Assembly (NCBI RefSeq): GCF_024256385.1
Contig: NZ_JAMLFW010000002.1
Span: 558,001 to 622,000, forward strand
DNA: 64,000 nucleotides
Direction of reading: 5' to 3'
Source of the DNA: Anatilimnocola floriformis
GTDB lineage: Bacteria > Planctomycetota > Planctomycetia > Pirellulales > Pirellulaceae
Notes under the pieces: model-generated
The model's database searches: none
What the model was told of the DNA's origin: nothing
What the model saw: only the letters and a program-made list of their open reading frames with translations
Shown here: positions 12,879 to 26,423 of the stretch, piece after piece
How positions within the stretch are numbered: position 1 is the stretch's first letter
Layout of the letters: each line of letters begins with the position of its first letter
Position numbers and translations under genes: made by a program

Positions 12879-14171
12879 TTAAAACCGCCGATTGATCTGC
12901 ACCTGCACTTCGCTATCGAAGAAGCGGTCGTCATCGGCGGCGCCCATCGGCACGACGCAGGCCACGCGGATCGACGTGAGAATGTTGTACTGGGCCTGCA
13001 GGCCTACGGTCATGTTGAGCACGTCGAAGCGATTGAACCCGTTGCGATAAGTGAAGGCCCGGCCCGCGGCATCGCCGGCCACTTCGTCGGTATCTTGCAG
13101 CGACGTGGTGTAGTGCAACTCGAGAATGGCGGCCAGGCTCGTAAAGCCGTCGTTCATTTCGTCGCGATACAGCCAGTAGCCGGTTCCCAAGTCGACGAAC
13201 AGCAGGTTCTGTTCGTTGTAGAGCCCCAGCGTATCGACGGGGCCGCCAGCCGCAGGGCCCGACTGAATGCGATTGCCAGCCGTGGCTAGATCGCACTGCA
13301 CAAAAGCATTGATGAAGTACGGCCCATCGTTGCTAAGCAGAACTCCCAAGAAGGGAAGCAGATGCAGCGCATCGTTCTGGAAGGTGATCTGGTTCGTCGG
13401 AAACGAAACGTTGTCGGTCAACACAAAATTGCTGCCGGTCGGTGTATCGATGCCCATGCCCGCGACGATGGCCATTTCGTCATCCATGTAAAGCAAGTGC
13501 TTCAGGATGAGAGCCAGGTTGCCGATCTGTCCGCCGTCACCGGCGACGGTCGCTCCTTGAAAGTTGAAGTCACCCTGAAAGGGCATGCGCACTTCGACCG
13601 ACCACATGCCGTTTCCAAACGTTTTCTCGACGCCGAATGTATAGCGATCGATGGGGAACTGCTGCGTGACCGGAGTTCCGCCGCCGCCGAAAAAGTCGGT
13701 CTCGGTGTATTGCAGCGCGTTGTGAAAATGACTGTAGGAGAAGATGAACCGATCGGCAGGCAAGGCTTTGTTGTTTTCGCCGACCTTCACATGCCGGCTG
13801 CCGCCCGCCGAAGGGATGCTGAACGAACCGAACGCGCCATCTGCGGAGCCTGCTAGTTCATTGGGGCTGTACGTGACGTTGCCCCCCGACTGAAAGTAAT
13901 CGCCAAACATTTCGGGCGCACTCGCCAGTCGGTTGTACGCCGGCGCAGGCGCCGCACGACTCGTCGCTGCGGGCGTGCGCGGAGTGGAGAGAGATGGCAT
14001 TCGCGCAGCGGGTGGCTGCGCTGCGATCGAAGCCGAAACCAATTGGGCTTCGATCTTCTCTTCCTCTGTCAGTTCACGAGCGGGAACTTGTGCCGACGTC
14101 GGCGCAATCGTTACGACCGCGCAGGTCAACGCGTAGAGGGCTGCAATGAGCTTGTTGTGTCTTCCTGACAT
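12879..14171 (-). CDS. Predicted outer-membrane beta-barrel protein
   Basis: 430 residues. The N-terminal signal (about 1-27, hydrophobic ALYALTCAVVTIAP, cleavage after SAQ) is followed by an Ala/Pro-rich linker (about 45-85). A long region of alternating hydrophobic/aromatic residues then fits amphipathic strands: FIFSYSHFHNAL, YTFGVEKTFG, WSVEVRMPFQG, LALILKHLLY, LLFVDLGTGYWLY. The C-terminus ends VQVQINRRF; a terminal Phe is the usual barrel-assembly signal. It resembles the transporter or MetA-pathway type of OMP, but no substrate can be assigned. It is convergent with the SDR gene. Confidence 0.7.
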   Translation of the reverse strand: MSGRHNKLIAALYALTCAVVTIAPTSAQVPARELTEEEKIEAQLVSASIAAQPPAARMPSLSTPRTPAATSRAAPAPAYNRLASAPEMFGDYFQSGGNVTYSPNELAGSADGAFGSFSIPSAGGSRHVKVGENNKALPADRFIFSYSHFHNALQYTETDFFGGGGTPVTQQFPIDRYTFGVEKTFGNGMWSVEVRMPFQGDFNFQGATVAGDGGQIGNLALILKHLLYMDDEMAIVAGMGIDTPTGSNFVLTDNVSFPTNQITFQNDALHLLPFLGVLLSNDGPYFINAFVQCDLATAGNRIQSGPAAGGPVDTLGLYNEQNLLFVDLGTGYWLYRDEMNDGFTSLAAILELHYTTSLQDTDEVAGDAAGRAFTYRNGFNRFDVLNMTVGLQAQYNILTSIRVACVVPMGAADDDRFFDSEVQVQINRRF

Positions 14172-14312: not shown

Positions 14313-15251
14313 TCAAACGCTCAGCGGCGGGCTCGTCTGCAGAATCGCGTTCACTTTTTCTATGGCCTGCTGCCGATCGTGAATGCCCTGCCAATGTGTC
14401 GCGCGCGGGATTCTCTCAAGCACCCGCCCGCCGAATAAATTGTCGTGCTGAAGACGCGGCAGATTTACGTAACCGATGTAGCAATCGCAGCTGAGATTGG
14501 GACAAGCTCGCCGGCTGAGCGCGGCTTGCCAGTCGCTGCCGTAGATATTTCCGAGCACTCCACTCACAAAATGGCAACGGCGGAGATTGCCATCGCCATC
14601 GATCGACACCGATGATTCGCCGGCGACACACTCTGCTCCGAGCGAGGGGTGGTTGGTCAGATTCAGGCGAAATAGGGGATCGACCTGCTCCAGCCGCGCC
14701 ACCTGCTCGTCGGTGTAGTAGTCGGGCAGATCTTTAAAAGCGTTGACCCACAAATAAGCGTGTGATGGTAACTCGGCACGCAGGGCTTCGATCTCTTCAA
14801 AATTCTCCTGCAATCCGACCACACCCGCGCTGAACGACACGCCGCGATCGGCAACCATCTGGCATTGCTGCAAAAACTCGCGCCGTGAGATCTGCGTCGG
14901 ATGAAAGGTGCACCACAGCGCAAGCCGCTGAGCGTTGGCCTCGCCAAGCCAATCGAGCGAACACGACAGATTTGTCTGAATCGCGACCCGGCGCACGTGA
15001 GCGAACTGACTGATACGCACCAGCGCCTGCTGATACCAGCGACGCGTCAGTCCTTCGCCCCAGGGCGTGAATAGGATCGAGAGCTCGCAATCCGTTTGCG
15101 CCGCAACCCAATCGACGAAACGTTCGAGGCATTGCCGATCGTGTTTGAGTTCAGCTGCCGATTCGTGCCGCTTAGCGAAGGGGCAATAGTTGCATTCGTA
15201 ATTGCAACTCGAGAGAGGGCCGCGATAGAGGATCTGCAGCTTTAGCGCCAT
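14313..15251 (-). CDS. STM4011-family radical SAM protein
   Basis: 312 residues from ATG 15251, which overlaps the stop of the upstream STM4012-like gene by 10 bases. LQILYRGPLSSCNYECNYC carries the Cx3Cx2C cluster for the 4Fe-4S/SAM centre (Cys about residues 14, 18, 21). PFAKRHES, LFTPWGEGLTRRWYQQAL and HFVSGVLGNIYG follow, with several further Cys near the C-terminus (CPNLSCDCY) that could hold an auxiliary cluster. The family is named after an uncharacterised Salmonella protein and occurs with STM4012-STM4015 homologues, as here. The reaction is unknown; peptide or protein modification is my inference. Confidence 0.88.
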   Translation of the reverse strand: MALKLQILYRGPLSSCNYECNYCPFAKRHESAAELKHDRQCLERFVDWVAAQTDCELSILFTPWGEGLTRRWYQQALVRISQFAHVRRVAIQTNLSCSLDWLGEANAQRLALWCTFHPTQISRREFLQQCQMVADRGVSFSAGVVGLQENFEEIEALRAELPSHAYLWVNAFKDLPDYYTDEQVARLEQVDPLFRLNLTNHPSLGAECVAGESSVSIDGDGNLRRCHFVSGVLGNIYGSDWQAALSRRACPNLSCDCYIGYVNLPRLQHDNLFGGRVLERIPRATHWQGIHDRQQAIEKVNAILQTSPPLSV

Positions 15252-16570
15252 GCATACTCCTCCATCTGCTGCGCGATGGTTGCCGAGTACAGCCAGGGGC
15301 CGATGGCATCGGAGCGTTCCAAACCGGCCGGCGTGAGTCGCAGGCAATCGCCGTCCACCTCGGCCAGTTTGTGACTTAGCAGTTCGTAAAGTTCTGGAAA
15401 ATCAGCCAGCGCCTCACTGCCAAAGCGTTTCGCATAATCCGCGCAGCGCAAACCTTCGGCTTGCAGGAGCGACAGAATCAGCACGCGACGGCGCTGCTCG
15501 TGCTCATCGAGCGTTGCGCCGAACTCGACTGCGCCGAAATCGCCCATCGATTTGCCGATGTAATCGGCGAGGATGCCCGCCACGTTGGCCGATTTCACAG
15601 CGTACTCGCGCGAGTAATGGAGCGAGTGTGTATACGAGCGCGCGCCACAACCGAGACCGACCATGCCATCGCTCTGGCAACAGTACGTCGGTCCTGCTGT
15701 TTCATCAGCGGCCCGCGTGAACATCCGCATCGAAGTCTGCTGGTAACCGGCTTCCAGCAACTTGTCGCGCCCGGCGCGATAGAGAAGCAAACGCCAGTCG
15801 TCCCACTCCTCCAGTCGCGCGAGGCCAGTCAACGGCCGCACGTAGAGCGGATAGAGATAGATTTCTTCAGGCGCGAATGCAACGGCGCGTTCGATTGTCG
15901 CCAGCCAGCTGGCCAGCGTCTGCGAACTCGAGCCATAAATCAAATCGAGGTTGGTCACTGGAAAGCGATGCGCCGCGAGGAGCGCTAGGGCTTGTTCCAC
16001 TTCGGCCCGTTTCTGCGGACGGCCAAGTGTTTGCAAGTCGCGCTCTTCGAAACTTTGAATCCCCAAACTGAAACGCGTGGTGCCGCGTTCGCGCAGCAGC
16101 GCGAGTTTTTCCGCCGTGAGGGTGGCGGGCGAACCTTCGCAGCTCAGCGGAACTGCGATCCGCCGCTCGGGCGTGAAGCGCTCGATGATCTGGAACAACC
16201 GATCGAGTTCTGCGATCGTCAAAAACGTCGGCGTGCCGCCGCCGATGGCCAGGCGCGAGAACTGCGGCTCGGCGAGCGTTTCTTGATAAGCATCGGCTTC
16301 GCGCTCGAGTGCAGCTAGATAACGCGTGGTCAGCGAATCCGCAGGTTGCGACAGCGTGAAGAGATTGCAAAAGCCGCAGCGATATTCGCAAAACGGAATA
16401 TGCACATACAGGAACAGCGAATCGCTCGGCTCGGCTTGCCACACGCGCTGCAGCGGCAGTGGCTCCGCCAACCGACGATAGGCCGTCTTGTGCGGATAGG
16501 CGTACGAGTATCCCACGTACGGTGAGCCCGTCAGCACGTCGGCCAGCTTCGTCGCTCCTGCCATGCTCAT
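15242..16570 (-). CDS. STM4012-family radical SAM protein (HemN-like)
   Basis: 442 residues from ATG 16570, 11 bases after the STM4013-like stop. GSPYVGYSYAYPHKTAYR marks the family N-terminus. LYVHIPFCEYRCGFCNLF supplies Cx3Cx2C, with a fourth Cys-like HemN position nearby, and LAIGGGTPTFL is the SAM-contacting GGGTP. LGIQSFEERDLQTLGRPQ is also HemN-like, and the winged C-terminal domain (about 360-440) resembles coproporphyrinogen III dehydrogenase. The tetrapyrrole enzyme's own function need not hold; many HemN homologues are methyl or heme transferases. It is the middle gene of a three-gene minus-strand operon. Confidence 0.9.
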   Translation of the reverse strand: MSMAGATKLADVLTGSPYVGYSYAYPHKTAYRRLAEPLPLQRVWQAEPSDSLFLYVHIPFCEYRCGFCNLFTLSQPADSLTTRYLAALEREADAYQETLAEPQFSRLAIGGGTPTFLTIAELDRLFQIIERFTPERRIAVPLSCEGSPATLTAEKLALLRERGTTRFSLGIQSFEERDLQTLGRPQKRAEVEQALALLAAHRFPVTNLDLIYGSSSQTLASWLATIERAVAFAPEEIYLYPLYVRPLTGLARLEEWDDWRLLLYRAGRDKLLEAGYQQTSMRMFTRAADETAGPTYCCQSDGMVGLGCGARSYTHSLHYSREYAVKSANVAGILADYIGKSMGDFGAVEFGATLDEHEQRRRVLILSLLQAEGLRCADYAKRFGSEALADFPELYELLSHKLAEVDGDCLRLTPAGLERSDAIGPWLYSATIAQQMEEYAWR

Positions 16571-16581
16571 CGCTGTTGATC

Positions 16582-17391
16582 TCACAGGTCGCGGGCCGAG
16601 TGGACAAACTCGGCGTACGGAACATTCCACACGCACTCATGGGCCAGGCGATGTCCCCAATAACCAGCCTCGCCATAAGCCGTGCCGTGGTCGCTCGTCA
16701 GGATACACAACGACGGTCCGCGCTGCGCGAGTAAATCAAACAGCGGCGGCAGCTGTCTGTCGACATAGGCGAGCGCTGCCGCTTGCGTCGCCGGCGAATC
16801 TTCCTGCGCCGGCGGCGCGAAGATGCAGTTCGGCTGATGCAGCGCCGAGATATTAATAAACAAAAAAGCTCGCTGCGAGTTATCGAGCGCTCGCAAACGT
16901 TCGCAAGCGAGCGCTACTTGGCGCTCGGTCGAGTGCCGGCTGGTTACTCCTAGTTCTTCGCTCCAATGACTCTCCTGAAATAAATCGGGCAGCACACAAC
17001 CGAGCGGACTAAGTCGATTAAAGAAACCAACGCCGCCGATGCAAATGGTGTGATAGCCCCGCGCGGCCAAGCCATGCACCAGATTCGCCTCTTCAAAAAC
17101 AAACGTTTGCTCGCTCGTTGTTTCGCTTCCCGGAAACCGCGCGGCAAAGAGTCGTGCATGCTTGCCAGGTGTTGCTGGCGTCGGCAAAAAACCAGCAAAA
17201 AATCCTTGGTGCGCAGCGAAGGTAAAGTTCCCTGGCGAATGCCGTTGTTCCCAATGGCCGCCAGGAAGCAAGCTGGTCAAAAATGGCGTTTTTCCCGCGT
17301 TATTTGCCTGTTCGGCAACATCGTAGCGCAGCGTATCGAGCGTGATCAGCACGACATCGTGCGAGGGAATTAATTGACGGACATTGATCAT
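16582..17391 (-). CDS. STM4013/SEN3800-family hydrolase (sulfatase fold)
   Basis: 269 residues. I use ATG 17391 because the family begins close to the VxxLIxSHD block; ATG 17412 adds 7 residues. It has alkaline-phosphatase/sulfatase superfamily signatures: VLITLDTLRYDVA (metal Asp), SPGNFTFAAHQGFFAGFLPTPA and, near the C-terminus, LTSDHGTAYGEAGYWGHRLAHE. The Cys-x-Pro-x-Arg formylglycine motif of true sulfatases is absent, and a Thr/Ser (GNFTFAAH) occupies the nucleophile region. Phosphoester transfer or hydrolysis is therefore likelier than sulfate removal. First gene of the STM4013-4012-4011 operon, divergent from the plus-strand half. Confidence 0.88.
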   Translation of the reverse strand: MINVRQLIPSHDVVLITLDTLRYDVAEQANNAGKTPFLTSLLPGGHWEQRHSPGNFTFAAHQGFFAGFLPTPATPGKHARLFAARFPGSETTSEQTFVFEEANLVHGLAARGYHTICIGGVGFFNRLSPLGCVLPDLFQESHWSEELGVTSRHSTERQVALACERLRALDNSQRAFLFINISALHQPNCIFAPPAQEDSPATQAAALAYVDRQLPPLFDLLAQRGPSLCILTSDHGTAYGEAGYWGHRLAHECVWNVPYAEFVHSARDL

Positions 17392-17466
17392 GAAATTTCT
17401 CGGCAGCGACATTCTGCCAGCGCGCGATGTACCGAAGCAAGTTCGCCAAAAGTTTTCGCGAAGGAA

Positions 17467-17496
17467 GTTGAAATGCTAAAAATAGAAGCGATATAA
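17467..17496 (+). promoter_or_regulatory. Sigma-70 promoter of the plus-strand cassette arm
   Basis: TTGAAA at 17467-17472, an 18-base spacer and a perfect TATAAT at 17491-17496. Transcription would start near 17503. The ribosome site AGGAG and ATG 17534 follow. This is one of the closest matches to the sigma-70 consensus noticed in the window and drives the small-protein/LRR/WGR/ATP-grasp genes. Confidence 0.75.
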
Positions 17497-17533
17497 TCTC
17501 GAACTCTTATCCCTCCTCGCAGGAGTCGTCGCG

Positions 17534-17830
17534 ATGCTTTTTCGGCACGGTGATGTACTGATTCAAAAGGTCAAGGACCTTCCCGAAGAGAAGGAGCGGC
17601 TGAAACATCGCACGCTCGCCCACGGCGAACTCACGGGGCACAGCCATCAGATTCGCGAGAAGCACGCGACGATGTGGCAATCAGGCGAGCTCCTCTTTCT
17701 GGAGGTCGAAGGACAGCCGGCGACCGTCGTGCATCAGGAACACGGCCCAATCGAACTTCCTCCGGGCTATTACCGAGTCTGGCGGCAGCGCGAATACACG
17801 CCCGAACGCATCGTGGTCGTCCGCGATTAA
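17534..17830 (+). CDS. Small conserved protein accompanying DUF6745 ('HEHGPI' family)
   Basis: 98 residues, ATG preceded by AGGAG. Visible blocks are RHGDVLIQKVKDLP, AHGELTGHSHQI, VVHQEHGPIELPPGYYRVWRQREYTPE. The two His-rich segments (HGELTGHSH and HQEH) could bind metal or a ligand in a small beta-barrel or cupin-like fold; this is inference. I know similar small ORFs beside DUF6745 genes in other bacteria, where they are also unannotated. It is followed 15 bases later by the LRR-DUF6745 gene, so the two are almost certainly co-expressed. Function unknown. Confidence 0.75.
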   Translation: MLFRHGDVLIQKVKDLPEEKERLKHRTLAHGELTGHSHQIREKHATMWQSGELLFLEVEGQPATVVHQEHGPIELPPGYYRVWRQREYTPERIVVVRD

Positions 17831-17845
17831 AGAGGAGCAACCTGC

Positions 17846-18802
17846 GTGGCGACGATGATCGATATCTCACCGGCCGAGGCGGCCAAGTTGATTTTGGCGG
17901 GCGAGTCAAAATCGGGGTGGACGCTCGACGGAAAATTGTCGCTGGCTGGCAGCGGCAAAAAACTGAAAAAATTGCCGGCCAAGCTCACTTGCTATGAGCT
18001 TGACGCCTCGAACTCCGACCTGGAAACCGTTCCCGCCGATCTGGCCGTCGATTGCGCACTCAATCTGCAAGGCTGTCGCAAACTGAAATCGCTCCCCGCT
18101 GACTTGCGCGTCGGCACGTTGAATGTCGCGGAGTGCACCGCGCTCGAGGAATTGCCCGAGGGACTCGACGTTTGGTTTTTGAATATCTCTGGCTGTCCCC
18201 AGCTCACTAGCTTTCCGCGCCGCGCGACGATCGCGCGCGGCAACTTGAATATGAACGGCTGCACGGGAATTGCTGAGATTCCGAACTACGTGCAGGATCT
18301 GGGCACGCTCGATATCGGTAATTGTCCGCAGATCACCGAGGTGCCTGCCGGGCTGAGCGTTTCGTCGTGGATCGAACTCGCCGGTAGCGGCGTGACGAGT
18401 TTGCCAGAGAGACTAAACGGCATCGGTCTTCGTTGGCGCGGCGTGCTCATTGACGAAGTAATTGCCTTTCATCCCGAAAAGCTCACTTCGAAGATCGTTC
18501 TCAAAGAACGAAACGCCGAACGACGCCGCGTGATGATCGAGCGGATGGGCTTTGATCGTTTCATTCGCGATGCCGGCGCCGAAAAACTTGATGCCGATCG
18601 AGATCCCGGTGGTCCGCGCGAGTTGCTCCGCGTGCCGATGGAGCGCGACGAAGCCATTGTCTGCTTGTCGTGCAATTGTCCTTCCACGGCTCGTCATTAT
18701 TTGTTGCGAGTTCCGCCAACGATGACGACCTGTCATCAAGCCGCGGCTTGGATGGCCGGTTTTGATGACCCGAAGTTGTATAACCCGCTCCAAGAAACGT
18801 AA
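17846..18802 (+). CDS. LRR protein with C-terminal DUF6745-like domain
   Basis: 318 residues from a GTG placed 8 bases after an AGAGGAG ribosome site. Residues about 40-190 hold short repeats of about 20 residues ending in LPxxL or VPxxL (ETVPADL, KSLPADL, EELPEGL, TEVPAGL, TSLPERL), as in IpaH/YopM-type LRRs. The C-terminal third (about 205-318: RRRVMIERMGFDRFIRDAG, HYLLRVPPTMTTCHQAAAW, LYNPLQET) matches the DUF6745 pattern known from cyanobacteria and actinobacteria. It is probably cytoplasmic. It sits between its small partner and the WGR-STM4015 gene. Role unknown; protein recognition is likely. Confidence 0.78.
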   Translation: MATMIDISPAEAAKLILAGESKSGWTLDGKLSLAGSGKKLKKLPAKLTCYELDASNSDLETVPADLAVDCALNLQGCRKLKSLPADLRVGTLNVAECTALEELPEGLDVWFLNISGCPQLTSFPRRATIARGNLNMNGCTGIAEIPNYVQDLGTLDIGNCPQITEVPAGLSVSSWIELAGSGVTSLPERLNGIGLRWRGVLIDEVIAFHPEKLTSKIVLKERNAERRRVMIERMGFDRFIRDAGAEKLDADRDPGGPRELLRVPMERDEAIVCLSCNCPSTARHYLLRVPPTMTTCHQAAAWMAGFDDPKLYNPLQET

Positions 18803-18843
18803 CCAAGACGAAGAGTCAGACTTGAACACTGGGGAGTCCCTGC

Positions 18844-20115
18844 ATGAGCTTTCGTGAGTTTGAGTACGCCGACGGCAAGTCGTTCAAATTTTGGAAGATC
18901 GAGCAGCAAGGGAGCGACGTCGTCACTCGCTACGGCCGCATCGGCTCCGACGGCCAGGAAACGAAAAAAGACTTCGGCACGCCTGAGGCCGCCAAGAAGG
19001 CGTACGACAAACTCGTCGCCGAAAAGACCGGCAAGGGATATGTCGAGAAGACCGGCGGTGGCGTGGCCAGCAGCGAAGCCGCGCCGGCGGCCAAACCTGC
19101 GAAAGGTGCAAAGGGAGCAGCTGCTGCGACCGCTCCAGCAGCCAGCACGCCGATTTCGTCCATGCTGTTTGCGACGACGCGCGATGGCAACTTCGGACAT
19201 CTGAACAACTTCATCGGCCAGCGTGTAACCGATTACAAGGAAGGAACGCCGCCGAAGGGAAAGACGGTGTTTCGCATCCGTTGCCATTGCGAAGAGGATG
19301 AAGAAACCGCCGCGCAATTCAAGGAACGCTTTCACAATTTTTTGAAGAGCGATGCCGCGCTGGAAACGATCGGCTTGGTGACGGGGCTCGAAGAGATGTA
19401 CCCCGATGAGGACAAGAACATTTCTGTCGCTCTGCTGGCGGAGCACGCTGACCGCTTGCCGAAATTGCAGGCCTTGTTTTTGGGCGACATTTTGCAAGAG
19501 GAACAGGAAGTCTCCTGGATCAAACAGACCGATATCTCGCCGGTGCTGGCCGCTTTTCCCCATCTCGAAATGCTGCGCGTGCGCGGCGCCGACGGCCTCG
19601 CGATCAGCAAGCCTCAGCATGCGAAACTGCGAGCCCTCGCCATCGAATCGGGCGGCTTGTCGCCCGAGGTGGTCGCGTCGATCTGCCGGGGCAAGTTTCC
19701 CGAGCTTGAATACTTGGAACTCTGGTTGGGCACACCCAACTACGGCGGCGAATGCCGGGTCAACGATCTGCAGCCGATTCTCAAAGGCAAGCTCTTTCCG
19801 AAATTGAAGTACCTGGGCTTTCGCAATGCCGAAATCGCCGACGACATTGCAGCCGTGATCGTTAAGTCGCCGGTTATCGAGCAGCTGGAGACGCTCGATC
19901 TGTCGCTCGGCAATCTCAGCGACGAAGGGGCCAATGCGTTGCTGCAGTTGAAGGATAATACGAGTCTCAAGCGGCTCGACCTGCATCACCACTACATCGG
20001 CAAGCCGGTGCAAAAGTCGCTCAAGCAATTGCCTTTCCCGGTGGACCTGGCCGATGCCAAAACGGTTGACGAAAACGACGAATGGGCCGGCCGTTTCATC
20101 TCGGTCAGTGAGTAA
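18844..20115 (+). CDS. WGR domain fused to STM4015-family LRR protein
   Basis: 423 residues, ATG after GGGGAG. Residues about 1-78 form a WGR domain (KFWKIEQQGSDVVTRYGRIG is the core, with Y-G-R-I-G for W-G-R). An Ala/Lys/Gly-rich linker (about 75-105) follows. The STM4015-type domain runs from about 108 to the end: SWIKQTDISPVLAAFPHLE, LRALAIESGGLSPEVV, LEYLELWLGTPNYGG, LETLDLSLGNLSDEGA and LKRLDLHHHYIGK, a regular LRR array. The C-terminus is WAGRFISVSE. WGR domains are found in PARPs and in MolR-type bacterial proteins. The stop overlaps the next gene by 8 bases. It could be either a scaffold or the substrate of the linked enzymes. Confidence 0.85.
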   Translation: MSFREFEYADGKSFKFWKIEQQGSDVVTRYGRIGSDGQETKKDFGTPEAAKKAYDKLVAEKTGKGYVEKTGGGVASSEAAPAAKPAKGAKGAAAATAPAASTPISSMLFATTRDGNFGHLNNFIGQRVTDYKEGTPPKGKTVFRIRCHCEEDEETAAQFKERFHNFLKSDAALETIGLVTGLEEMYPDEDKNISVALLAEHADRLPKLQALFLGDILQEEQEVSWIKQTDISPVLAAFPHLEMLRVRGADGLAISKPQHAKLRALAIESGGLSPEVVASICRGKFPELEYLELWLGTPNYGGECRVNDLQPILKGKLFPKLKYLGFRNAEIADDIAAVIVKSPVIEQLETLDLSLGNLSDEGANALLQLKDNTSLKRLDLHHHYIGKPVQKSLKQLPFPVDLADAKTVDENDEWAGRFISVSE

Positions 20116-21280
20116 GCCGGCACGTCGCTGGCTCGTCATCGGCAATCCAGAAAATCGTCGCGTGGGGCTCTTTCAACAAGCGCTCCTCGAACTCGGGCAA
20201 AGGCCCGCGGACGTTCTTTCTTATATCGATTTGCTGCAAGATCCCGCGCTGCTGCCGGCAGCGCTCGAGCGTAACGAGTCGAACTTACTGCGCATCGAGT
20301 CGCCGGGCGAAAATCCGCTCGTCGAAAAGCTGATAATTGCTCGAGGAGCACGAGCAACCGAGGCCACCGAACTTGTCTCCAAAATCGCTCGGCTGCGCGC
20401 GGATCCGGGACGCATTCGCTGGCCGCAACTTTGGTTTGCGGGCTTTTCGGACTTGCTGCAAGATCTCGCTACTGAGCTCGATCGTCATGCTGAATTGCGA
20501 GTACAGAATCACCCAACTGCCATTCGCACGCTGTTCGACAAACCGGCCTGCCATCGACTGTTGCAGTCGTGTGGTGTTGCCGTGCCCCGCGTGCTTCCTG
20601 CCGTGAAGAACTACGACGAACTGCGCACGGCCATGCAGGATGCAGGGATGACGCGAGTCTTCGTCAAGCTCGCCTGCGGTTCGTCGTCTTCGGGCGTAGT
20701 CGCTCTGTCGACCGCGAATACTCGGCCACTGGCGATCACTTCACTCGAACTCGTGCGTCATCGTGGTGAAGCTCGCTTTTACAATAACTTGCAACTGTCG
20801 CGCTACAACCGCGAGCAGGACATTCGCACCATCTGCGATTTTCTCTGCGGCGAGGGAGCGCACGTAGAAGAGTGGTTGCCCAAGGCTAGGCAAGATGAAC
20901 GCGAACTCGACCTGCGCGTTGTCACCATCGGCGGGCGAGCTCGTCACGCGGTTGTGCGGACCAGTCGGTCGCCGATTACGAATCTGCATTTGGGAAACCG
21001 CCGCGGCGATTTGTCGAGTTTGAAAACGGCGATGGGTGCACGCTGGAAAATTGTTACCGAGATTTGCGAGCAAGCGGCGGCTGCATTTCCACAAGCCCTC
21101 AGCATCGGCTGGGATCTGCTCGTCACTCCCGGATTTCGCCGAGCGTACATTCTCGAAGGGAATGCCTTCGGCGATCTGCTGCCGAACGTGCTGTTTCGTG
21201 GCGACTCGACCTACGCCGCCACCATCCGCGTTGCGGCAAGTCAAGGTCAGGCGCGAACTCGCTCTAACGAGACTGGGTGA
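20108..21280 (+). CDS. STM4014-family ATP-grasp protein
   Basis: 390 residues from GTG 20108, inside the last codons of the STM4015 gene (8-base overlap, translational coupling). The N-terminal pre-ATP-grasp segment is WLVIGNPENRRVGLFQQALL. The ATP-grasp core has VFVKLACGSSSSGVVAL (Lys and glycine-rich loop), HVEEWLPKA (adenine-binding Glu), DLRVVTIGG and the metal-binding LEGNAFGDLLPNVL near the end. These enzymes activate a carboxylate as acyl-phosphate and join it to an amine, often on a peptide. In this setting a peptide or protein carboxylate of its overlapping neighbour is a plausible target (inference). Confidence 0.85.
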   Translation: MSKPARRWLVIGNPENRRVGLFQQALLELGQRPADVLSYIDLLQDPALLPAALERNESNLLRIESPGENPLVEKLIIARGARATEATELVSKIARLRADPGRIRWPQLWFAGFSDLLQDLATELDRHAELRVQNHPTAIRTLFDKPACHRLLQSCGVAVPRVLPAVKNYDELRTAMQDAGMTRVFVKLACGSSSSGVVALSTANTRPLAITSLELVRHRGEARFYNNLQLSRYNREQDIRTICDFLCGEGAHVEEWLPKARQDERELDLRVVTIGGRARHAVVRTSRSPITNLHLGNRRGDLSSLKTAMGARWKIVTEICEQAAAAFPQALSIGWDLLVTPGFRRAYILEGNAFGDLLPNVLFRGDSTYAATIRVAASQGQARTRSNETG

Positions 21281-21369
21281 GGCGAGGGTGCGCGGTGACA
21301 AACGTCAATCCGGGCAGTTACACTGGGTGGCGATTCAGGTTCGTTCACCCTTCCGACAGCGAGTTGTCC

Positions 21370-22365
21370 ATGCCTCTCTCTCGACGCGCATTGCTAATCG
21401 GCGGCACGGCGGCTGCTGCCGCTCATTTCTTAAATCGCAATGCCTCCGCCAGCGCGGCCAAAATTGAGGACAAAAAGATGCTTCCGCTGATCGACACGCA
21501 CCAGCACCTGTGGGACGTCACCAAGTTCAAGCTCCCCTGGCTGCCGAAAGAGGGCGTGCTGTCGCGGAGCTACGTGATGGACGACTACCGCGCTGCCATT
21601 GCTGGCACCGGCATCGAACGCTCGGTGTACATGGAGGTCGACGTCGCGCCGGAGCAGCAAGTGGCCGAAGCGGAACACCTGATTGCCATTTGCAAGTCAG
21701 GCACGGCGCCGACGATTGGCGCGGTCATCAGCGGCCGGCCTGCCGAAGAGGCGGCGTTCAAGGAATACATCAGCAAGTGGAAAGACTCGCCGCAGATCAA
21801 AGGTGTGCGCCAGGTGCTGCATGCCGATATGACGCCAGCGGGAACTTGCCTGGGCGAAGCTTATGTTCGCAGTGTGCAGTTGCTTGGAGAAAAGGGGCTC
21901 AGCTTTGATCTGTGCCTCCGTCCCACCGATCTGGCCGATGCTTCGAAGCTCGCCGACAAATGCCCGGGGACTCGGTTGATCGTCGATCACTGCGGCAATG
22001 CTGATCCCAAGGCTTGGCTGACGGCGTCCCGCCGTGGCGATCAAAAGCCCGATCACGAAGTGGCCGCCTGGAAAAAAGAGATGGAGGAAATCGGCAAGCG
22101 GAAGAACACGCTGTGCAAAATCAGCGGCATCATCGCTCGCGTGACGAAAGAATGGGGCGTCGACGACCTGGCCCCGATCGTTAACCACTGCCTCGATAGC
22201 TTCGGCCCGGACCGCGTCATCTTTGGCAGCGACTGGCCTGTCTGCCTCCTCGGTGCCCCGCTCAAGGCCTGGACCGACGCCCTCCGCCAAATTGTGGCTA
22301 GCCGCCCGGCAGCGGAGCAGGAAAAGCTCTTCAGCGGCAACGCGACGCGGTATTATCGCCTGTAG
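21370..22365 (+). CDS. Tat-exported amidohydrolase (amidohydrolase_2 family)
   Basis: 331 residues from ATG 21370, the start that puts the twin-arginine-like signal (SRRALLIGGTAAAAAHF) at the N-terminus. The mature enzyme is a TIM-barrel amidohydrolase: LIDTHQHLWDV (metal-binding HxH), RLIVDHCGNAD, and VIFGSDWPVCLL containing the catalytic Asp. GIERSVYMEVDVAP and IKGVRQVLHAD are typical of the L-fuconolactonase/dicarboxylate-lactonase branch. Probable action: hydrolysis of a sugar lactone or related compound in the periplasm. It begins 89 bases after the ATP-grasp stop and need not belong to that cassette. Confidence 0.85.
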   Translation: MPLSRRALLIGGTAAAAAHFLNRNASASAAKIEDKKMLPLIDTHQHLWDVTKFKLPWLPKEGVLSRSYVMDDYRAAIAGTGIERSVYMEVDVAPEQQVAEAEHLIAICKSGTAPTIGAVISGRPAEEAAFKEYISKWKDSPQIKGVRQVLHADMTPAGTCLGEAYVRSVQLLGEKGLSFDLCLRPTDLADASKLADKCPGTRLIVDHCGNADPKAWLTASRRGDQKPDHEVAAWKKEMEEIGKRKNTLCKISGIIARVTKEWGVDDLAPIVNHCLDSFGPDRVIFGSDWPVCLLGAPLKAWTDALRQIVASRPAAEQEKLFSGNATRYYRL

Positions 22366-24131: not shown

Positions 24132-24908
24132 ATGCCCAATACACTTCGTTACTTGCTCGCCGCTGCCGTTGTTTGTGGTGGCCTGTCCTGGGTCACGGCT
24201 CAAGAGAAAGGCGACAATCCGCCTCCACCGCCGCGCGGCGAACCTCGCAGTGGCGATGCCCCGCCACCGCGCCGGCCAAACGACAATCCGCCGCCGCGCC
24301 GTGATGACGATCGTGGTCCTGGTGGCCCGAATGCAAATGGTCCGGGTCCAGGTGGGCCCGGTGGACCTGGTCCTGGTGGTCCGCGATTCAATCCGCCGCC
24401 GCGTGGTGATGGTCCTGGTGATCGTGGTCCTGGCCCAGGTGGCCCAGGTGATCGTCCGCCGCCGCCTCCTGGTGGACCGGGCGGTCCTGGAGGCCCAGGT
24501 GGTTATGGCGAGCGACCGGGCATGGGGCCGCATCGTGGTCCCGGTGGACCTGGTGGTCCAGGCATGATGGGTCCTCCGCTCGATTGGCAACGTCTGGAGC
24601 AAGACGATCCCGAGATGTATGCGCTGCTGAAGTCGGATCACGAGCTCGAGCGAAAATCTCTGGAAATCTCGAATCAGCTACGACAACTTCCGCGCGATCA
24701 GCGGGTTAAATTGAAAGATGAGTTGACGACAACTCTCAATGAACACTTCGATGTTCGTCAGAAACGTCGTGAGCTACAAATCAAACGGATGGAAGAAGAT
24801 CTAAAGAAACTTCGCGAAGGTATTACCAAACGCAACGAGTCCCGCAAGGAAATCGTGGGCAAGCGTTTGAATGAATTGACTGGCGACGAGAACGACAAGG
24901 ACTTTTAG
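24132..24908 (+). CDS. Secreted Gly/Pro-rich protein with C-terminal coiled coil
   Basis: 258 residues. Signal peptide about 1-23 (LLAAAVVCGGLSWVTAQ). Residues about 30-150 are irregular GPGGP/PPPR repeats of Gly, Pro, Arg and Asp, almost certainly disordered. Residues about 155-250 form a charged helix (SLEISNQLRQLPRDQRVKL, KRMEEDLKKLREGITKRNE), somewhat like periplasmic Spy/CpxP-type stress proteins. Downstream of the ECF sigma and its partner in the same direction, so it is probably a target of that sigma. The Gly/Pro tract has unusually simple codon usage (GGT/CCT/CGT). Confidence 0.75.
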   Translation: MPNTLRYLLAAAVVCGGLSWVTAQEKGDNPPPPPRGEPRSGDAPPPRRPNDNPPPRRDDDRGPGGPNANGPGPGGPGGPGPGGPRFNPPPRGDGPGDRGPGPGGPGDRPPPPPGGPGGPGGPGGYGERPGMGPHRGPGGPGGPGMMGPPLDWQRLEQDDPEMYALLKSDHELERKSLEISNQLRQLPRDQRVKLKDELTTTLNEHFDVRQKRRELQIKRMEEDLKKLREGITKRNESRKEIVGKRLNELTGDENDKDF

Positions 24909-25091
24909 GCGAACGGAATCGACTGCTGACGCGGCGCTGCCTGTTTGCAGCGCTGCCACATCACGAACAATCCGGCGGCGATTGATTTTTGCAATCGCTA
25001 TGTCGGCTGGGATCGAGCTGCGCCCACACATAACGCAGCAGTAGACAAGCAACGGGCACCTTTTATTGTCGGACTGGTAAGGAGTGAGAAC

Positions 25092-26423
25092 ATGCAACGT
25101 TTTTGGCGGACTGCAGCGCTGCTGGCGTGCTTCGGCGGGGCGATGATCGTCTCAGCAAGCCTGCGGGCGGAAGATGAAGTTACTGTGGAATCAACGGCCA
25201 CGGAACAAACCGTTTCGGAAGAATCCGCTACGGACGATGTTGCCGAAGTGGAAGCCTTTACCAATTTCCAAGGCCCCGGCCGTGGCCCTGGTCCAGGACG
25301 CCCCGGCCCCGGTCGGCCTGCTGATCGCGGCCCAGAGCACCGCGGCCCAGAACACCGCGGCCCAGAGCATCGCGCTCCAGAACATCGTGGCCCGGGTGGA
25401 TTTGATCATCGCGGTCCAGAACACCGCGCTCCCGAACATCACAGTGCTGATCGTCGTGGCCCCGGCGGCTTCGATCATCGTGGTCCTGAGCATCGTGGCC
25501 CAGAGCACCGCGCTCCAGAACATCACAGCGCCGATCGTCGTGGTCCTGCTGGTCCGCCGTCGCGTGGTGGTGAAGATCGGCGGATTGCCGAGCTCGAACG
25601 GAAAGTTGCCGAACTCACTCGTGAGTTGCACGCGTTGAAGTCGCACGGTTCGCATGGCGACGCTCATCGTGGCCCAGCCCCGCGTGATGATCACCGCAGC
25701 CAAGCCAACCGTGGACCCGATCGTCGCGGCCCGAGTGGTCCTTCGTTCCGCGGCCCACCGTCGCGTGGTCCGGCACCGCAGTTCGGTCGTGGTCCTTCCA
25801 CCAATCGTGGCCCGCAATTTGGCCGTGGCCCCGCGCCGCAATTCGGTCGGCCGGGCGGCTTTGGTGGATTCGCTCGCCGCGCCCCCGAAGGCAATCGCCC
25901 TGGCTCGGAAGGTTTCCGTCCCCCGGCCCGCCGTGAAGACGATCGTCGTCCCGAAGGTGACCGCCGCCCCGAAGGCCGCGGTGACGATCGCCGACCCGAA
26001 GCTCGTGGCCCTGGTGGTCCGCCGCCGCGCCGCGAAGATGACCGTCGCCCTGAAGGTCGCGCTCCAGAAGCTCGTCGTCCGGAAGGACGTCCCGCAGCTG
26101 GCCCGCCGCCGCGTGGCCCCGAAGGCCGCGGTGAAGATCGTCGGCCTGAAGGTCGTGGTCCGGAAGCCCGTCGCCCTGAAGGACGCCCTGAAGCTGGTCC
26201 GCCGCGTGGACCGGAAGGTCGTGGCCCAGAAGCACGTGGACCTGAAGGCCGCGGTGGTGATCGCCGACCAGAAGGTCGGCCCGAGGGTCGCGGTCCAGAA
26301 GCAGGCCGAGGCCCCGAAGGTCGTGGCCCTGGCGCCGGTGGCCCGCCGCCGCGTGGTGAAGGTTCCGGCCGCGAAGGTGGCCGTCGTCCTCCGCCACCCC
26401 GCGATGAAGACGTGACGTTCTAA
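25092..26423 (+). CDS. Secreted repeat protein rich in Arg, Gly, Pro, Glu and His
   Basis: 443 residues from ATG 25092 with an AGGAG ribosome site. Signal peptide about 1-25 (TAALLACFGGAMIVSASLRA). Then an acidic stretch of about 30 residues, a GPEHRGPEHRAPEHH repeat zone (about 75-155), a short Leu-zipper-like helix (ELERKVAELTRELHALK, about 170-186) and FGRGPA repeats. The rest is a long RREDDRRPEGR/PEARRPEGRP zone to the end. No enzymatic motif is visible. The composition suggests a disordered, polyelectrolyte extracellular or periplasmic protein, perhaps binding anions or metal through His. DNA repeats here are prone to length variation. Confidence 0.75.
   Translation: MQRFWRTAALLACFGGAMIVSASLRAEDEVTVESTATEQTVSEESATDDVAEVEAFTNFQGPGRGPGPGRPGPGRPADRGPEHRGPEHRGPEHRAPEHRGPGGFDHRGPEHRAPEHHSADRRGPGGFDHRGPEHRGPEHRAPEHHSADRRGPAGPPSRGGEDRRIAELERKVAELTRELHALKSHGSHGDAHRGPAPRDDHRSQANRGPDRRGPSGPSFRGPPSRGPAPQFGRGPSTNRGPQFGRGPAPQFGRPGGFGGFARRAPEGNRPGSEGFRPPARREDDRRPEGDRRPEGRGDDRRPEARGPGGPPPRREDDRRPEGRAPEARRPEGRPAAGPPPRGPEGRGEDRRPEGRGPEARRPEGRPEAGPPRGPEGRGPEARGPEGRGGDRRPEGRPEGRGPEAGRGPEGRGPGAGGPPPRGEGSGREGGRRPPPPRDEDVTF

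Follow-up and report, generated by a model that had tools for sequence, protein, structure and literature searches.

Among the described systems close to the one considered here are some with ATP-grasp enzymes acting at protein C termini. LysX joins its substrate to the gamma-carboxyl group of the C-terminal Glu of LysW, which carries the motif EDWGE (PMC10433800), and RimK adds Glu at the C terminus of a ribosomal protein (PMC10092738). Carrier-protein and pearlin logic is likewise known already (PMC9303977), and so are, by name, the five families STM4011 to STM4015, whose NCBIfam records (NF038073, NF006067, NF038075, NF038074 and NF038076) give names and no function. All five occur in a seven-gene cassette at positions 14,313 to 21,280 of a 64,000-nucleotide stretch (the window; contig NZ_JAMLFW010000002.1, positions 558,001 to 622,000) of the 8.9-Mb genome of Anatilimnocola floriformis. 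They comprise two radical S-adenosylmethionine (SAM) enzymes (STM4011 and STM4012), a sulfatase/alkaline-phosphatase superfamily hydrolase (STM4013), an ATP-grasp enzyme (STM4014) and a leucine-rich repeat (LRR) protein (STM4015); the other two genes encode a small HEHGPI protein and an LRR protein with a C-terminal DUF6745 domain. The LRR proteins paired with this enzyme set share, almost without exception, one short C-terminal tail, which is therefore the probable target of the enzymes. The cassette is proposed to be a tail-modification system in which STM4015 would be the substrate or carrier, STM4014 would extend the tail, and the radical SAM pair and STM4013 would process it; we rate the chances of this proposal as even.

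In the accessible portions of the open-licence literature, STM4015 and STM4013 appear in one paper each, as table entries, STM4011, STM4012, STM4014, SEN3800 and DUF6745 were not found, and texts joining radical SAM, ATP-grasp and leucine-rich repeat hold nothing on the cassette. No description of the tail, of its loss in some copies or of the seven-gene form was found in those portions.

Linkage and spread of the five families

Loci were collected with STM4014 as the hook, so the presence of the other families was not built into the counts. The seeds of the search hidden Markov models (HMMs) were derived from the window and from plasmid records, and the 80 loci used were the best 80 of at least 507 confirmed candidates ranked by STM4014 similarity, many being from Streptomyces. 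The samples overlap, with some genomes in more than one (locus L073 is genome G258). At least 7 kb was available on either side of STM4014 in 54 of the 80 loci, and all five families were present at 51 of these well-flanked loci (33/33 actinobacterial and 18/21 others), the three incomplete ones being cyanobacterial (L051, L063 and L064). The other 26 loci had shorter flanks; in one of them, L043, STM4014 stood without any other family in 14 kb. The earlier note on this DNA had argued for one system, and this is well supported, since the families were together at nearly all well-flanked loci and not apart as often as together.

The same nesting was observed in whole genomes. STM4015 was found in 46 of 101 Streptomyces-group genomes; 43 of these 46 also had STM4014, and no other genome of the group did. 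The 316 Actinomycetes genomes gave 45 and 44, nested again. For the 246 Planctomycetota genomes, STM4014 exceeded its cut-off in 6 and STM4015 was matched at E 1e-10 in 7, those 6 included. A relaxed STM4014 search (E 0.001) matched 103 of the 246, nearly all of them other ATP-grasp proteins below the cut-off. One enzyme set often accompanies several STM4015 genes: half of the STM4014-positive Actinomycetes genomes (22/44) had two to five STM4015 matches and one STM4014, one of the three matches in G557 being broken. Several STM4015-like copies per single enzyme set were also seen in the cyanobacterial loci L044, L045, L050, L056 and L064.

Complete or partial cassettes were found in Planctomycetota, Verrucomicrobiota, Cyanobacteriota, Melainabacteria, Chloroflexota, Armatimonadota, Bacteroidota, Actinomycetota, Deinococcota, Bacillota, Alpha- and Gammaproteobacteria and one deltaproteobacterial bin. 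Such patchy spread (6/246 Planctomycetota above the cut-off), together with plasmid carriage, the multiplied LRR paralogues of cyanobacteria and the WGR domain, would suit a role in phage defence or other conflict, in which the LRR proteins would be sensors and the modified tail would belong to an effector. A PADLOC scan gave no full-length component match, only weak partial ones (pVip, PDC-M51A and WGR_XIII), and STM4014, in 43 of the 101 Streptomyces-group genomes, would be common for a defence system, which makes this explanation very improbable.

The cassette had been described as split into two divergent arms, and this was confirmed; a layout in two arms recurs at other loci. It was split in 3 of the 51 complete well-flanked loci (L048 and L072 divergent, L067 convergent) and also in L033, L034 and L042. 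The distance matrices of the two arms (STM4011 to STM4013 against STM4014) were correlated with r = 0.97 over 74 loci, a value reached in 0 of 1000 permutations, which shared ancestry alone could give. In quick trees, the window STM4014 and STM4015 paired with L040 (support 1.0 and 0.997), STM4012 fell in a six-locus clade including L040 (0.993), STM4013 grouped with L040 and L042 (0.805), and STM4011 was unresolved. By identity, L040 was the closest relative for five window genes, STM4011 and STM4012 being closest elsewhere. Different origins of the two arms were rejected on the basis of the quick trees, identity and the arm-distance correlation.

Decayed or shortened cassettes were also encountered. 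Fragments of STM4014, STM4015 and STM4011 were present in L038 (G048), a short STM4015 frame in L034 (G181) and an in-frame stop in the copy of L032 (G164:C810). At L139:9670-11625 (Bacteroides finegoldii), STM4012 and STM4013 were short remnants, and a tailed STM4015, STM4014 and a fusion of STM4011 with a haloacid dehalogenase (HAD) domain were open.

The C-terminal tail of STM4015

STM4015 proteins stop exactly at R-[YF]-x-[AS]-V-x-E-COOH, after a variable acidic linker, and listing of the C termini gave the same end motif across phyla and in divergent paralogues of one locus. Examples are RYVAVGE, RYCSVAE, RYCALYE, RYYSVWE, RFVALGE and, in the window, RFISVSE; looser forms are those of Paenibacillus (RYPSLTE), Bacteroides (YYPMITE) and Salmonella (NAMYTE, the loosest). 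Glu stood at the stop codon in 130 of 133 STM4015 proteins with at least 60% HMM coverage from 102 loci, Arg at position -7 in 123 and Tyr or Phe at -6 in 128; the duplicates L066 and L075 and loci L128 to L136 were left out of this count. When all fetched DNA was counted, the terminal Glu was present in 223 of 238 complete copies that differ from one another. Reduction at 60% body identity left 76 representatives, 69 of them ending in Glu. In a tree of the bodies (last 25 residues removed; L136, L251 and L253 excluded; median end branch 0.58 changes per column), the 7 Glu-less representatives corresponded to 7 separate changes, forced by well-supported branches. Because the exceptions arose separately, the tail would most simply be ancestral and now and then lost.

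The conservation of the tail was compared with that of its surroundings. In the 69 Glu-ending representatives, positions -7 to -2 carried 3.2, 3.4, 1.4, 2.3, 2.8 and 1.7 bits, and position -1 carried 4.3 bits, these rows having been selected for Glu. Linker positions -20 to -8 carried 0.7 to 1.24 bits each, and the fraction of Asp and Glu was 0.30 at -27 to -8 versus 0.15 in the body. The median body column had 2.0 bits, with 70 of 274 columns reaching 3.0. The tail is therefore about as conserved as the repeat core, and between the two lies an acidic linker that is not conserved. With its definition slightly relaxed, the motif was found in 253 of 11,082 stop-terminated frames of at least 100 residues in the fetched loci (overlapping loci unmerged); 252 were STM4015 matches and the remaining one reads as an STM4015 fragment, the STM4015-matching frames in this set numbering 331 with fragments and repeats included. 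Ends were ragged in three of the enzymes, the commonest last residue accounting for 21 of 96 STM4014, 26 of 85 STM4013 and 13 of 79 STM4011 proteins.

The tail was then related to the presence of the enzymes. The three Streptomyces-group genomes with STM4015 and without STM4014 all lacked the terminal Glu (3/3), their proteins ending in SVGPLTY (G292), CVEGLP (G362) and RYVSIAV (G335), and the bodies still matched at E values of 7e-93 to 1e-110. By the body tree, these losses probably represent two independent events. STM4013 was absent from G292 and G362. Extra-cassette copies in STM4014-bearing Streptomyces-group genomes kept Glu in 6 of 9 cases (G334, with broken copies, left out; one of the 6, in G328, is separated from the STM4015 of the cassette by no more than about 3.5 kb). 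Of 15 rows with no cassette genes nearby, 11 kept it; the 15 came from four cyanobacterial or Micromonosporaceae-type genomes, reached via cassette loci, and from Nostoc sp. 106C. Dependence of the tail on STM4014 is suggested as a trend, not as proof. G584, which likewise has STM4015 and lacks STM4014, was set aside, its STM4015 gene ending a few bases from the contig end in a frame that does not end in Glu. In G335, an STM4013-like gene was noted with a different radical SAM gene some 1 kb away (L271:8864-11838; PF04055, 72 bits), and the 18 kb read there gave no STM4011, STM4012 or STM4014 match.

Enzymes, neighbours and the proposed chemistry

STM4014 is assigned, from its profile matches, as an ATP-grasp enzyme that appears distantly RimK/LysX-like. 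Both STM4011 and STM4012 have CxxxCxxC. STM4012 matched the sequences of HemN (1olt) and NocN (9p2u). STM4011 gave no useful match among solved-structure sequences; the family consensus has conserved C-terminal Cys residues and there were weak matches to SPASM-named maturase models, with no Pfam SPASM match at E 0.1. STM4011 also weakly matched TIGR03942, a model of anaerobic sulfatase maturases (16.2 bits, cut-off 349). This, together with the match of STM4013 to the sulfatase family, would be expected if the radical SAM enzymes were maturases of STM4013, as the anaerobic sulfatase-maturating enzyme is for sulfatases, with STM4015 as a sensor. The maturase target C/S-x-P-x-R was found in 0 of 86 STM4013 relatives within the first 110 aligned residues, and FT[YFW]xxH in 86 of 86; sulfatase-type maturation of STM4013 was rejected on this evidence, and this account of the cassette is scarcely credible.

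Among neighbour clusters not restricted to Actinobacteria or cyanobacteria, the only one lying within 1.5 kb in at least 4 loci, apart from an Hsp70-like cluster, was a HAD hydrolase, found at 5 loci (L033, L040, L058, L062 and L072), with Pfam HAD_2 matched by the two that were scanned. A Cof-type HAD follows STM4011 in a Salmonella record, and the STM4011 of a Bacteroides record forms a fusion with a HAD domain (PF08282, 76.5 bits, cut-off 20.9). These neighbours and the fusion make a phosphorylated intermediate in the pathway plausible. The Hsp70-like cluster was present at 7 cyanobacterial loci and 1 other; WD40 and Hsp70-like genes recur beside the cyanobacterial loci with multiple STM4015 genes (Pfam-confirmed for L044).

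No recurrent protease, peptidase or exporter was recognised beside the cassette by neighbour clustering, in which several actinobacterial-only clusters were unidentified and some were wrong frames of one gene. This bears on carrier-protein biosynthesis, in which the tail would hold a metabolite during its assembly and afterwards let it go, in the manner of LysW or the pearlin carrier peptides. The C-terminal Glu and the distantly RimK/LysX-like ligase would fit such a pathway, and pearlin logic is compared with that of amino-group carrier proteins in PMC9303977. The lack of a recognised protease or peptidase among the recurrent neighbours argues the other way, as do transporter clusters at scattered distances (within 1.5 kb at 3 loci for ATP-binding cassette and 1 locus for major facilitator superfamily transporters) and the absence of the EDWGE motif and of the small zinc-ribbon form. 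Release of a metabolite is therefore considered quite unlikely, and because no such protease or exporter recurs, a modification that stays on the protein is favoured.

Gene content, linkage, conservation of the tail and its loss from some copies outside the cassette are observed; we infer the tail as substrate, the order of the steps and all of the chemistry in the following scheme. STM4015 would be the substrate or carrier, with an LRR body that recognises something and a C terminus made of acidic linker and tail. STM4014 would activate the terminal glutamate, which is constant on the neighbouring STM4015 as a RimK/LysX-like ligase would need, and ligate an amino acid or amine to that residue. 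The substrates of STM4012 and STM4011 would be either this newly attached group or the conserved Tyr/Phe, which they would remodel next, and STM4013, in some species aided by the HAD phosphatase, may act on a phosphate at some step. The modified tail would probably stay on STM4015, and the HEHGPI-DUF6745 pair would be an accessory module. The suggestion of the earlier note that an LRR protein is the scaffold or substrate is thus backed by the family-wide tail as a matter of conservation; its modification is a part that we infer.

Several observations weigh against a tail-modifying system. No modified product is known and none is visible from sequence. The similarity of the window STM4014 to ligases is weak, with 23.8 bits (E 2.4e-5) against the rimK_fam cut-off of 143.4 (TIGR00768) and 14.4 bits against the LysX_arch cut-off of 275.6; profile comparison with the RimK of its own genome aligned 38 columns (probability 22.5%, E 9e-4), and the STM4014 profile matched no solved-structure sequence at E 0.1. 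Glu-less copies occur despite STM4014 in 3 of the 9 Streptomyces-group copies and 4 of the 15 rows (one a fragment), and Glu is missing from one Dulcicalothrix copy and, in each of the two Herpetosiphon arrays, from the copy that comes first. Of the losses in the body tree, about two concern genomes that lack STM4014, and five concern genomes that have it. G292 and G362 share one cluster with G298 and G345, both STM4014-bearing, and G335 holds an STM4013-like gene elsewhere. Last residues are also fixed in DUF6745 (Thr, 44/48) and HEHGPI (Asp, 50/50), and STM4012 usually ends in Lys or Arg (67/81), so that a fixed end alone is no proof of a substrate.

The conserved ends of DUF6745 and HEHGPI would also be accommodated if the tail were a docking tag by which STM4015 assembles with STM4014 or with the radical SAM enzymes, which would make a small molecule or modify a target recognised by the LRR. 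The same pattern of conservation and loss would result, and LRR bodies are typical binding domains. Against docking, the strictest position is the terminal residue, as would suit a ligase acting on the C terminus, and the presence of as many as 5 STM4015 proteins per enzyme set is more in keeping with clients than with a fixed subunit; neither point is decisive, and docking is judged rather unlikely. Returning to tail modification, a broader form of it would be a family of folded LRR recognition proteins whose constant C-terminal heptapeptide is made into a protein-bound cofactor or reactive group by dedicated enzymes (the ATP-grasp ligase, the two radical SAM enzymes and the hydrolase). The family, multiplied into arrays in some genomes and present in roughly twelve phyla and classes of bacteria, would then represent a new kind of protein modification system. 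This we hold tentatively, as possible and somewhat short of probable. The tail reduces a cassette without an assigned function to one mass-spectrometry question on one peptide, and if the proposal is true, carrier- or RiPP-like chemistry (RiPPs being ribosomally synthesized and post-translationally modified peptides) would no longer be confined to small peptides and would take in LRR proteins that are large and folded.

The HEHGPI-DUF6745 pair, the locus and its described relatives

The HEHGPI and DUF6745 genes had been regarded as a pair inserted into the cassette. This emphasis was wrong, and a local insertion was rejected: the two occur together on 32 of the 54 well-flanked loci (30/33 actinobacterial and 2/21 others), and of 8 plasmid-collection records with HEHGPI, DUF6745 adjoins in 8 and the cassette is present in 7. 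The Deinococcus ficus plasmid pDFI2 (L124) has the pair without the cassette, followed by a gene with a von Willebrand factor A domain and, about 9 kb on, a DUF4132 gene. L088 has DUF6745 without HEHGPI, and the pair was present in G110, where STM4014 and STM4013 were not found. Cassette-type DUF6745 (at least 365 bits, profile matched to its last position, 206) was present in 35 of the 101 Streptomyces-group genomes, all STM4014-positive, and in 0 of the 58 without STM4014; a weaker type (91 to 110 bits, ending at 201 to 202) was present in 6 regardless of STM4014. Among the 246 Planctomycetota, DUF6745 was found in 6, together with STM4014 only in the genome of the window. Since the pair occurs with and without the cassette across loci, plasmids and genomes, its distribution marks it as a separable accessory module, repeatedly joined or lost.

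Neither Pfam nor NCBIfam gave a match to the window HEHGPI protein at E 0.1; it matched one uncharacterised phage family, phrog_27831. Alignments gave the conserved pattern GHxH...HxEHxxI...QREYxP...D-COOH. Its AlphaFold2 model is predicted to be all-beta (predicted local distance difference test [pLDDT] score 85.8), with no Foldseek match in the PDB at E 0.001, a best VIA-align Z of 3.5 and no useful match among solved-structure sequences. HEHGPI-like proteins were also seen in phages (L142:4968-5342 and 10 further phage records), the hosts of the gene being LMM01/MaMV-type Microcystis phages, another Caudoviricetes record and, weakly, a Mycobacterium prophage. In the window DUF6745 protein, PF20530 is covered from 84 to 206 only and the N-terminal part is LRR, a part not common to the Streptomyces, Nocardia and Actinoplanes-type rows of the alignment. 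Its AlphaFold2 model consists of the LRR and a C-terminal domain (pLDDT 93.1) and matched no solved structure at E 0.001, the first two rows being LRR proteins.

The features of the locus are collected in Table 1. The frames and the scans of the family libraries confirmed the positions and names previously given to the seven genes; for six of these, Pfam, NCBIfam or both gave a score above the curated cut-off, the exception being the small HEHGPI protein. The 10-base overlap of STM4012 and STM4011 is present (15242-15251). The 8-base overlap of STM4015 and STM4014 holds with the GTG start at 20108, and the mechanical ATG start at 20054 would make it 62 bases. The WGR domain of the window STM4015 lies at residues 9-70 (PF05406, 65.7 bits, cut-off 22). 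The sigma-70-like site in the divergent gap has 11 of 12 matches on the plus strand, and a search of the 121 bases for such a site on the minus strand found none. The seven genes are flanked on one side by a 430-residue frame that matched no family (12879-14171) and on the other by an amidohydrolase gene (21277-22365). Pro/Gly/Arg-rich repetitive reading frames were noted further along, at 24132-26423.

Table 1. Features of the seven-gene locus (window coordinates)
Feature	Position	Strand	Evidence
STM4011-family radical SAM enzyme	14313-15251	-	NF038073, 402 bits, cut-off 200; CxxxCxxC is CNYECNYC; Cys-rich C-terminal region
STM4012-family radical SAM enzyme, HemN-like with HemN_C	15242-16573	-	NF006067, 573 bits, cut-off 380; PF06969, 34.9 bits, cut-off 24
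STM4013-family hydrolase, sulfatase/alkaline-phosphatase superfamily	16582-17412	-	NF038075, 400 bits, cut-off 250; PF00884, 38 bits, cut-off 25; FT[YFW]xxH segment, no C/S-x-P-x-R motif
Divergent intergenic region, 121 bases	17413-17533		Sigma-70-like site at 17468-17497, plus strand
Small HEHGPI protein, 98 residues	17534-17830	+	Alignments, AlphaFold2 model, phrog_27831
LRR protein with C-terminal DUF6745	17846-18802	+	PF20530, 71.5 bits, cut-off 27, profile 84-206; ends in YNPLQET
WGR-LRR protein, STM4015 family, 423 residues	18844-20115	+	NF038076, 316 bits, cut-off 275, residues 143-423
Acidic linker preceding STM4015 tail	20062-20091	+	Read directly
STM4015 C-terminal tail RFISVSE	20092-20112	+	Family pattern R-[YF]-x-[AS]-V-x-E-COOH
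STM4014-family ATP-grasp enzyme	20108-21280	+	NF038074, 390 bits, cut-off 175; likely start GTG at 20108

The proposed chemistry resembles that of the pearlins, and of the PqqA- and mycofactocin-type RiPPs, in that radical chemistry would take place on a genetically encoded C-terminal stretch. It differs in that the precursor here would be a large folded LRR protein, and no PEARL-type gene or protease was recognised at the cassette. With LysW and its ligases LysX and ArgX, the locus shares a terminal Glu of the carrier adjoining an ATP-grasp ligase, the LysX similarity of STM4014 being weak. LysW is a small zinc-ribbon protein with EDWGE, whereas the LRR protein STM4015 ends in R[YF]x[AS]VxE, and its partners are radical SAM enzymes and a hydrolase. 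With RimK and ribosomal protein S6 (RpsF), the common feature is an ATP-grasp enzyme at a protein C terminus, as is proposed for STM4014; unlike RimK, STM4014 scores far below the RimK cut-off, and its proposed target is a dedicated cassette protein accompanied by radical SAM enzymes. There is correspondence also with the NCBIfam families STM4011 to STM4015 themselves, all five of which exceed their cut-offs and stand together here as at most loci, and from which this locus is distinguished by the added HEHGPI-DUF6745 pair, the WGR domain on STM4015 and the divergent arms.

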